From assembly GCA_021805245.1 (NCBI GenBank), contig JAJZFS010000011.1:1-33741 (forward strand): a stretch of DNA of 33,741 bases, read 5' to 3'. A program made the translations under genes and the position numbers. The DNA comes from Pseudomonadota bacterium (GTDB taxonomy: Bacteria > Pseudomonadota > Alphaproteobacteria > Micavibrionales > UBA2020). Below, in pieces: positions 901-16,183 of the stretch (the stretch's first letter is position 1; every line of letters starts with the position of its first letter). Below the pieces are notes generated by a model that had not been told where the DNA came from, made no database searches, and saw only the letters and a list, made by a program, of their open reading frames with translations.

Positions 901-962
901 TATCAAGACGAAATTCAGAAATCCATAGGATGATCTGTTATTTTTAAGGAAAGGCAGAAAAT

Positions 963-1457
963 ATGAAAACGAAGATTTTAGTCCTCGCCGCCGTTGCCGC
1001 ACTTTCGCTGGCCGGTTGCGCACAAAACGGCCAACCGAACCAGTGGGGCATGGGCACCAAGCAAACCGTCGGCACTGCGGGCGGGGCGATCCTCGGCGGC
1101 TTCCTTGGCTCCAAGGTCGGCCATGGCGGCGGTCAGCTCTGGGCGACGGGCGCGGGCGCGCTTCTCGGCGCCTTCGCGGGCAGCGAGGTCGGCAAGTCGC
1201 TCGATCGGGCGGACATGGCTTATCACGAGCAGGCCGTGCAACAAGCCTATACGGCGCCTATGAACCAGACCATCACATGGAACAATCCGCAGTCCGGTCA
1301 CCATGGCTCGATCACGCCGATCCGTCAGGGCACGCAGGCTTCGACCGGCGAGACCTGCCGCGAGTTCAAGCAGGCGATCATGATCGACGGTCAGGCGCAA
1401 ACCGCCGTCAGCACCGCCTGCCAGAATGCGGACGGCACTTGGACGGTCGAGCGCTAA
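963..1457 (+). CDS. Glycine-zipper outer-membrane lipoprotein (17 kDa surface antigen-like)
   Basis: This 164-residue protein starts with a lipoprotein signal peptide: MKTK, a hydrophobic core, and lipobox LAGC with C19 as the predicted lipidated cysteine. Residues 35-80 are rich in GxxxG repeats (GTAGGAILGGFLGSKVG, then GAGALLGAFAGSEVG), the glycine-zipper 2TM pattern of the Rickettsia 17 kDa antigen and SlyB-like families. The C-terminal half has two cysteines (in GETCREF and TACQNADGTW) in the arrangement typical of these antigens and may form a disulfide. The role is probably structural, in the outer membrane. The ribosome site AAGGAAAGG lies at about 949-957. A bidirectional terminator follows at 1503-1540. 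It is transcribed divergently from pdxH. Confidence 0.85.
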   Translation: MKTKILVLAAVAALSLAGCAQNGQPNQWGMGTKQTVGTAGGAILGGFLGSKVGHGGGQLWATGAGALLGAFAGSEVGKSLDRADMAYHEQAVQQAYTAPMNQTITWNNPQSGHHGSITPIRQGTQASTGETCREFKQAIMIDGQAQTAVSTACQNADGTWTVER

Positions 1458-15201: not shown

Positions 15202-15266
15202 GGTATTCACTTTCAAATGTTCCAACAGGGCCGATTCACCGAGGGGTGATTCCGCCCGAGGGTGGA

Positions 15267-15294
15267 AATATACCTTTTAAGCCTACTATGTCAA
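15267..15294 (-). promoter_or_regulatory. Promoter for rplU-rpmA
   Basis: On the minus strand, a consensus TTGACA (15289-15294), a 16-nt spacer and TATATT (15267-15272) give a strong sigma70-type promoter. The predicted start near 15260 leaves a leader of about 58 nt before rplU. Confidence 0.75.
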
Positions 15295-15322
15295 GAATTT
15301 CGTCAATATAAAGCGGAGCCAT

Positions 15323-15339
15323 CCCCTCCGCCGGAGGGG
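15323..15339. repeat. GC-rich intergenic palindrome
   Basis: CCCCTCC-GCC-GGAGGGG is a perfect 7-bp palindrome, followed by a G-rich tract with GGGGTGAG. It stands out in an otherwise AT-rich region. A similar element with GGGGGTGAG lies after tuf (20019-20043). It may be a REP-like repeat fragment. Confidence 0.4.
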
Positions 15340-15498
15340 GCGGAGAGAGGGGTGAGTGGTTATTTTGCTTAATTATAATATAATCAGGGCTCCGTATTTA
15401 ACTTAAGGAATAAAGACTCGTGCTTGTTATAGTATTATGAAAAATATAGGAATAATCATAAAATTAGCAATAAATGTCAAAAAAACGGCGACGAATCG
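15340..15498. other. AT-rich divergent intergenic DNA upstream of rpsL
   Basis: This stretch has no convincing gene. It is markedly AT-rich, with A-tracts and overlapping TATAAT-like words at 15374-15384 that lack a good -35. The A-tracts next to the rpsL promoter could act as an UP element for this strongly expressed operon. Confidence 0.4.
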
Positions 15499-15526
15499 TT
15501 GACGGAGGCGTTTTCCGTGTTATATT
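15499..15526 (+). promoter_or_regulatory. Promoter of the str operon (rpsL)
   Basis: TTGACG (15499-15504), a 16-nt spacer and TATATT (15521-15526) form a near-consensus promoter. The predicted start is near 15533, leaving a leader of about 255 nt before rpsL. It probably drives rpsL-rpsG-fusA-tuf and, by read-through, the S10 genes. Confidence 0.75.
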
Positions 15527-15532
15527 GCCCAC

Positions 15533-15787
15533 GCTCGTAAGGATGGACTGGTAGTAGGCCTTGGGCTTAAACGCAGTCCGGTTTTTAACCGATGCTTCCG
15601 CGGGAAAAGTGGAAGCGGGCTGATTTTAAATCAGGAGCCTGTCGTGCATTGCTGCATGGACGGGTTTTGTTTTCTCTAGATCCATCCGGACAGACAAGTG
15701 GATTTTTTATTTGCATGCATGACATGCGGATATGTGTTGAACGACATGCGAAGTTTCTTCGCGTAACAAAAGAGAAGGTATAGATAA
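15533..15787 (+). promoter_or_regulatory. Long structured 5' leader of rpsL
   Basis: Between the predicted start and the rpsL ATG, several hairpins can be drawn in series. They are GGACTG (15545-15550) with CAGTCC (15574-15579) enclosing an inner TAGGCC/GGCTTA stem; CGGTT-TTT-AACCG (15579-15591); GCTTCC (15594-15599) with GGAAGC (15611-15616); the palindrome CTGATTT-T-AAATCAG (15620-15634); TGCA-TTGC-TGCA at about 15646-15657; and GCGAAG-TTT-CTTCGC (15748-15762) next to the ribosome site. GACATGCG occurs twice (15721, 15743). I do not recognise a known RNA family. It may be an autoregulatory leader or a small RNA; folding and function are inferred. Confidence 0.45.
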
Positions 15788-16159
15788 ATGCCAACTTATA
15801 ACCAGCTCGTACGCAAAGGCCGTACACCGCAGGTGAAGAAAAAGAAAAACGCCGATCTGCAATCCAATCCGCAGAAGCGCGCTGTTTGCACGCGTGTCTA
15901 TACGACAACGCCGAAGAAACCGAACTCCGCGCTCCGCAAGGTCGCCCGCGTGCGTATGACCAACGGCCGCGAAGCCACATGCTACATCCCCGGCGTCGGC
16001 CACAACCTGCAGGAACACTCTGTCGTGCTGGTGCGCGGCGGCCGTGTGAAAGACTTGCCCGGTGTTCGTTACAAAATCATCCGCGGCGCGCTTGATACGC
16101 AGGGCGTCGATAAACGCAAACAGGCGCGCTCCCGTTATGGCGCGAAACGTCCGAAGTAA
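15788..16159 (+). CDS. rpsL: 30S ribosomal protein S12
   Basis: The 123-residue S12 is part of the decoding centre. It has the usual [12 protein letters not shown] start, [13 protein letters not shown] with K43, and VKDLPGVRY with K88 and D89. K43 and K88 are the wild-type residues whose substitution confers streptomycin resistance in other bacteria, so the allele looks drug-sensitive. D89 is the usual RimO methylthiolation site. The ribosome site AGAAGG is about 9 nt upstream. First gene of the str operon; rpsG follows after 24 nt. Confidence 0.98.
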
Positions 16160-16183
16160 GAGGCCAGAGAAAGGTATTTTATA

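Follow-up and report, generated by a model that had tools for sequence, protein, structure and literature searches.

The str-S10 cluster encodes much of the ribosome as well as elongation factors, and a few leader RNAs upstream of its genes have been described. The closest to the element reported here is the "rpsL motif" of 'Candidatus Pelagibacter ubique' (Meyer et al. 2009, PMC2704228). The accessible part of that paper describes it as a junction of three stems whose P1 is bulged, of unknown ligand, and restricts it to P. ubique and marine metagenomes. The motif heads a joined str-S10-spc cluster, with rpoC on one side and rpsL on the other, and combines a covarying stem and a loop of 3-10 nt with a near-invariant junction. 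Attenuators of rpsL transcription were reported in Listeria, Xanthomonas, Pseudomonas and Rickettsia, with no globally conserved feature according to the available text (Naville and Gautheret 2010, PMC2965389). To judge from its description, the Rickettsia attenuator resembles our element in being alphaproteobacterial and placed before rpsL. In the sources at hand, the alphaproteobacterial rpsL leaders previously described are these two, the first said to be confined to Pelagibacter, the second an attenuator without shared feature.

In E. coli, uL4 is the known regulator of the S10 operon and controls it through a structured leader that contains an intrinsic terminator, and the str operon has a uS7 site (PMC10931766, accessible part). 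Of the same general kind are the 20 ribosomal leader candidates found by covariation by Eckert and Weinberg (2020, PMC7247131), but Table 1 of that paper, as far as available, holds no str-operon leader: its 'rpsl' entry, after rplM in Bacteroidia, is taken for rpsI, and the entry restricted to Alphaproteobacteria is a leader for L2 upstream of rplB. Motif RLC-47-1 of Peptostreptococcaceae (PMC11109978, accessible part) also precedes rpsJ; it comes from another phylum and is likened to our element by position only. The available parts of PMC2864571 and PMC6429828 contain no rpsL or rpsJ leader motif, and the accessible literature, with most subscription journals outside the scope of the search, gave no description of our element beyond Pelagibacter.

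We analysed a stretch of 33,741 nt, hereafter the window, from an alphaproteobacterium of the order Micavibrionales (contig JAJZFS010000011.1), in which rpsL is preceded by a structured leader. The conserved part of this leader, hereafter the core, is a hairpin with an internal loop, it occurs in 33 families and it is also found before rpsJ, in all of which it is unlike the Pelagibacter motif as described. The wording used for that motif fits, by description, the cores lying between rpoC and rpsL in one family with small genomes. The same rpoC-rpsL position is seen in other carriers, but not in the window, where a divergent rplU lies upstream. Compared by description only, the motif and the core may be the same element, and the core, probably a ribosomal-protein leader of the str-S10 operon, possibly extends the Pelagibacter motif. 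The E. coli S10 leader is also likened by description: in loci of the rpsJ type the core likewise precedes rpsJ. A position before rpsJ with an attenuator is true of Azospirillum-type loci and untrue of the window, and the core, unlike the E. coli leader, is mostly placed ahead of rpsL, with rpsJ about 4.3 kb further downstream. The E. coli uS7 site belongs to the same operon but is placed between rpsL and rpsG, whereas here the element precedes rpsL.

A structured leader precedes rpsL

The following features delimit the leader:

15499-15526, plus strand: sigma-70-type promoter-like site, TTGACG-16-TATATT, 10 of 12 matches, with TG ahead of the second hexamer
15772-15778, plus strand: putative ribosome-binding site GAGAAGG, read from the sequence
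15788-16159, plus strand: rpsL (uS12), which heads the series rpsL-rpsG-fusA-tuf-rpsJ-rplC-rplD

All seven genes of this series scored above the NCBIfam cut-off, and the divergent upstream neighbour of the leader was confirmed by NCBIfam as rplU (L21). The intergenic gap between rpsL and rpsG (16160-16183) measures 24 nt. The rpsL leader transcript is expected to start near 15533. The segment 15533-15800 had a minimum free energy of -97.2 kcal/mol, versus -72.8 +/- 4.65 in 200 shuffles (z -5.25, none of the 200 as good), and its predicted fold contains more than six hairpins. A preliminary description of the locus had drawn at least six hairpins in a leader of about 255 nt (15533-15787) behind a near-consensus promoter, and these three claims held.

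The same description could not match the leader to a known class, and indeed Rfam 15 at the gathering threshold gave no match in the window. A relaxed Rfam scan of 15226-15850 yielded one chance-level match, on the opposite strand (E 1.3); in seven further loci the only match was an SRP RNA outside the core, and locus L264 gave no match up to E 1. A tRNA-like reading of CTGATTTTAAATCAG was set aside after ARAGORN reported neither a tRNA nor a tmRNA for the window.

Between rplU and the rpsL promoter there is a GC-rich palindromic stretch (15312-15360), inside which a terminator-like site was noted on the minus strand (15332-15312). The 251 bases from 15230 to 15480 matched only themselves within the genome.

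The first hairpin after the promoter is conserved and covaries

The core and its loop were delimited as follows:

15545-15579, plus strand: core hairpin (P2), lower stem 15545-15550/15574-15579, upper stem 15555-15560/15564-15569, pairs counted on alignments A1, A3, A4 and A5
15551-15554, plus strand: 5' side of the internal loop, GYNG, here GTAG, from alignments A1 and A4
15570-15573, plus strand: 3' side of the internal loop, RACG, here AACG, from alignments A1 and A4

In the core, a six-pair lower stem is separated by a 4x4 internal loop (GYNG/RACG) from an upper stem whose length varies. In the window, covariance model R3 scored it at 44.2 bits (E 5.2e-9), the runner-up reaching 8.9 bits. 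Upstream sequences were gathered for all 45 of the 55 relatives in which rpsL could be located, and 35 of them contained the form GGATGGRYTGGYNGTAG...CTARACGCAGTYC after a promoter-like site. By eye, similar promoter-like sites likewise preceded the core in other leaders inspected.

Pairing was assessed on several alignments. For A1 (35 cores, 32 distinct, aligned with MAFFT), 93.5% of cells paired, against 15-47% in slid versions, and 50 cells showed double changes; none of 500 shuffles reached either value. The number of pairs with double changes was marginal, being reached by 28 of the 500. A4 was a model-free MAFFT alignment of 46 distinct cores, from the 55 of 70 loci that were judged, partly from a GGAT before the core, to lie outside the order of the window. 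It gave 91.5% paired cells versus 25-57% when slid, and 21 cells changed on both sides, two values that none of 500 shuffles reached, but its number of double-change pairs was not beyond chance (280 of 500) and its number of pair types was reached by 97 of 500. The patterns used to gather A1 and A4 fixed the letters around the loop, and for A4 also the first two bases of the lower stem; because pairs fixed in this way could not vary, the evidence from these two alignments comes only from the variable pairs.

A3 (99 sources, 82 matches) and A5 (94 sources, 87 matches) were aligned to a model, so that their counts lean towards it, and each includes one row that is likely due to chance (L147; L045 472-503). 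A5 has 87 rows (84 distinct), eight sources without a match being dropped (L233, L235, L247, L249, L250, L254, L258 and L272). With this leaning, 93.2% of its cells paired (slid controls, 22-54%), double changes were seen at 10 of 12 pairs (reached by 3 of 500 shuffles) and 118 cells were doubly changed, versus 36.5 in shuffles. The inner pair of the lower stem, U-A, was C-G in four rows, A-U in two and unpaired in five. On this covariation, we take the hairpin structure of the core as real.

An alignment of relatives, searched for compensatory changes, had been advised in the preliminary description, and the first hairpin after the promoter does covary (A1, A4, A5). It is this hairpin that forms the conserved part, and not the one close to the ribosome site on which the stress had been laid. 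The latter, GCGAAG-TTT-CTTCGC, is present at 15749-15763, but it was dropped as a key element, since by eye it is kept in a single one, L003, among the 14 other rows of alignment A2.

The core was also considered as an rRNA mimic and rejected. A fuzzy strand search of E. coli 16S and 23S rRNA gave many weak pairs (for instance 16S 37/48 and 23S 1765/1782), and covariance models R1 and R3 run against the E. coli rRNA operon were not significant (best E 0.44 and 0.73), with no likeness of the core to the uL4 site of 23S rRNA.

Distribution of the core

The genome of the window holds a single copy of the core at E up to 1. Model R1 matched 70 of 142 genomes of the order. Among 385 genomes of the class, which we take to be Alphaproteobacteria, R2 matched 30 and R3 matched 59, with one copy each and from 33 families (counted as family labels), leaving 326 without an R3 match. 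The R2 search newly contributed 27 loci (three in genomes matched earlier), 26 at rpsL and one at rpsJ. The context of all 59 R3 matches was checked: 57 lie before rpsL and two (in G105 and G407) before rpsJ. Of the 59, 33 belong to the alignment from which R3 was built and 26 (25 at rpsL, one at rpsJ) do not; among these 26, at least G258 shares its core with row L160.

R3 is incomplete, since a loose form of the pattern was found in 17 of 56 rpsL upstream stretches from R2-negative genomes, nine of these having at least three pairs per stem and eight in all; it was absent from the other 39. In a sample of the phylum, 7 of 398 genomes matched, all within the class, a figure that says nothing firm about absence elsewhere because the share of the sample from outside the class is not shown.

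A pattern scan of genome contigs returned at least 115 stretches, of which the 80 listed were examined. Among these 80, 70 precede rpsL (53) or rpsJ (17), nine come from records of other groups than Alphaproteobacteria in which none of the seven str/S10 genes sought was found, and one (L087) is at a contig end. Named carriers among the matches listed include Azospirillum, Reyranella, Defluviicoccus, Pelagibius, Ferruginivarius and Micavibrio. The core begins 152-298 nt before the gene in the 70 leaders (152-293 nt for rpsL); the leader of the window, which had first been described as long for rpsL, falls within this range, with its core 243 nt before the gene. In one family of 0.9-1.4 Mb genomes, the core was found between rpoC and rpsL in 14 of the 14 rpsL-bearing genomes (of 18).

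Some record labels should be noted: L122, one of the 70, is labelled Actinobacteria, L143 is labelled Roseomonas, and the carrier Micavibrio UBA7657 (L108) stands under Bdellovibrionota in the NCBI taxonomy. Upstream of rpsL in genome G012, L010 contains a bacterial small SRP RNA (916-1014, minus strand; RF00169, 45.2 bits). By eye, L280, the rpsL leader of G128, seems to include a sequence resembling a tRNA, with CAT as anticodon and CCA at its end.

Gene order in carriers and the probable ligand

The str and S10 genes of carriers usually form one cluster. Among 66 carriers, 32 have the core with rpsL on the same contig as rpsJ, which without exception lies 3.0-4.6 kb downstream on the same strand. 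For 27 others rpsJ is on a different contig, with its upstream side at most 400 nt from the contig end in 22 and within 1.3 kb in three; one of these split carriers, G017, joins fusA-tuf-rpsJ. The search found no rpsJ in six of the 66, and G105 is of the rpsJ type. An exception may be G023, which has its core at rpsL and tuf ahead of rpsJ, with no fusA in the 620 nt before rpsJ: there the str and S10 operons may be apart.

In the 15 Azospirillum-type loci and in L084, the core lies between tuf and rpsJ, or directly before rpsJ with tuf upstream. In L084 tuf is immediately upstream of the core, and rpsL lies 4.4 kb upstream in all six Azospirillum loci that reach that far. The core of G407 precedes rpsJ behind another open reading frame, with tuf 1.3 kb upstream, and that of L121 precedes rpsJ with no str gene within 1.2 kb upstream.

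Because the core also stands before rpsJ, a single ligand for all copies, if it regulates the operon that encodes it, would come from the S10 part or beyond. From these positions, the S10 part is the probable source, and uL4 is our best guess, by analogy with E. coli. This argument is weakened by G023, since both operons may be apart there. A core shared before rpsL or rpsJ in 33 families would narrow the likely ligand to the genes common to both positions, and the question can be tested in cultured carriers such as Azospirillum.

A leader of the same kind could instead answer to uS7 (or uS12), the rpsJ copies being displaced leaders that still respond to these proteins. Indeed 57 of the 59 R3 copies adjoin rpsL, the possibly separate operons of G023 have the core at rpsL, and in E. 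coli the str operon is known to be repressed by S7 (PMC10931766, accessible part). However, the rpsJ-type loci have no str genes downstream of the core, and the E. coli S7 site lies between rpsL and rpsG, unlike here, where we judged the 24-nt gap too short for a control site of the E. coli S7 type. We regard this explanation as unlikely.

Terminator-like hairpins and a possible attenuation switch

Besides the core, the following elements were recognised in the leader of the window:

15532-15542, plus strand: possible antiterminator helix, 5' strands 15532-15534 and 15540-15542, from a consensus fold
15541-15547, plus strand: possible long-range closing helix P1, 5' strand GGATGGA, with a three-base overlap with the lower stem of the core
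15580-15590, plus strand: small hairpin P3 (GGTT...AACC), from the fold of 15 family members, two consensus pairs, no double change
15594-15616, plus strand: hairpin P4 (GCTTCCGC-GGGAAAA-GTGGAAGC), two pairs with double-sided changes
15620-15634, plus strand: hairpin P5, no double change
15638-15674, plus strand: intrinsic-terminator-like hairpin (15638-15664) followed by TTTTGTTTTC, read from the sequence and folded
15680-15708, plus strand: second terminator-like hairpin (ATCCA...TGGAT, then a T-run), predicted by folding, overlapping the 3' strand of P1
15681-15687, plus strand: possible 3' strand of P1, TCCATCC

The GGGAAAA of P4 did not vary in the 15 family members. For P1 (GGATGG/CCATCC), the score was 15.3 with the leader's own tail versus 10.5 with shuffled tails, within the order only, and variant strands gave a better fit with their own tail in no more than 8 of 12 cases, which argues weakly for this helix. 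The hairpin 15638-15664 was also found in relatives L088, L100, L118 and L125 (-16.0 to -17.5 kcal/mol); it was absent from the list of a stricter terminator scan of the window. The second terminator-like hairpin (15680-15708) was, by eye, absent from most rows of A2.

The consensus fold of the 15 family members pairs 15532-15534 with 15644-15646 and 15540-15542 with 15638-15640, that is, with the 5' arm of the terminator, with one-sided changes only. A related closing helix belongs to the minimum free energy structure predicted for a transcript ending at 15645, and is absent from that for a transcript ending at 15675. These folds suggest a candidate antiterminator/terminator switch in the leader of the window.

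Terminator-like hairpins are frequent in other carriers. Among the 70 leaders of the matches listed, 48 have a T-run-tailed hairpin of -9 kcal/mol or lower between core and gene, versus 9.0 of 70 after shuffling (single-base shuffles, four per leader), and 22 have none by this criterion, whose cut-off was our own choice; the 70 are not independent, 15 of the 17 rpsJ leaders being Azospirillum-type near relatives. In Azospirillum-type leaders, the terminator-like hairpin ends about 160 nt before rpsJ.

We think it reasonably probable that the core is a ribosomal-protein leader that acts in cis on the joined str-S10 operon by transcription attenuation. The computation shows the structure (by covariation), the gene association, the single copy and the enrichment in terminators, while the ligand and the switching are inferred. 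Of the three guesses made in the preliminary description, a ribosomal-protein regulatory element is thus backed by gene association, single copy, covariation and terminator-like hairpins; putative antitermination fits the terminator-like hairpins; and a small RNA does not explain the gene association.

Under attenuation, transcription would begin near 15533, and the first 50 nt or so would fold into the core, with its 4x4 internal loop as the putative protein-binding site. RNA polymerase would next make the putative terminator at 15638-15674, of which the hairpin and the T-run are visible. When a ribosomal protein from the S10 part (uL4 as the best guess) is in excess over its rRNA sites, it would bind the core and favour termination. 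When this protein is scarce, a competing helix with the 5' arm of the terminator, or the unbound complex, would permit read-through into rpsL, rpsG, fusA, tuf and the S10 genes. Such a leader would probably let the bacteria throttle their largest ribosomal-protein operon by early termination.

A more ambitious version, which we offer as tentative, is that the core, which Rfam lacks, is an alphaproteobacterial RNA switch for the joined str-S10 operon, working either by way of a protein of the S10 operon that recognises a loop unlike rRNA or as a built-in antiterminator on RNA polymerase, and that it keeps this job whether placed before rpsL or before rpsJ.

Antiterminator RNAs of the put type act on RNA polymerase without other factors. 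A core of this sort would act directly on the polymerase, which would then read through the attenuator with no ribosomal protein involved. The location of the core soon after a promoter-like site, and terminators that differ, by eye, between lineages, would agree with this. The likeness to put RNA, however, is conjectural, and the role of the polymerase is putative; we hold this mechanism to be improbable, and prefer a leader that responds to a ribosomal protein. A small RNA that is transcribed from the rpsL promoter, ends at the terminator and acts elsewhere, with rpsL as a mere neighbour, would suit the terminator-like hairpins in 48 of the 70 leaders of the matches listed and the second promoter-like site seen by eye after the structured part of some f3 leaders, but it is very improbable, given that all 59 R3 matches adjoin rpsL or rpsJ, the rpsJ positions included, and that the promoter scan lists no plus-strand site in the window after 15526.

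By eye, a hairpin similar to GCAACATCC...GGATGCTCTGC is seen in the rpsL leaders L021, L024, L026, L028-L031 and L034 of family f3 of the order, which also have another promoter-like site close to the gene. Most of these did not match the core pattern; two, L029 and L030, also carry the core.
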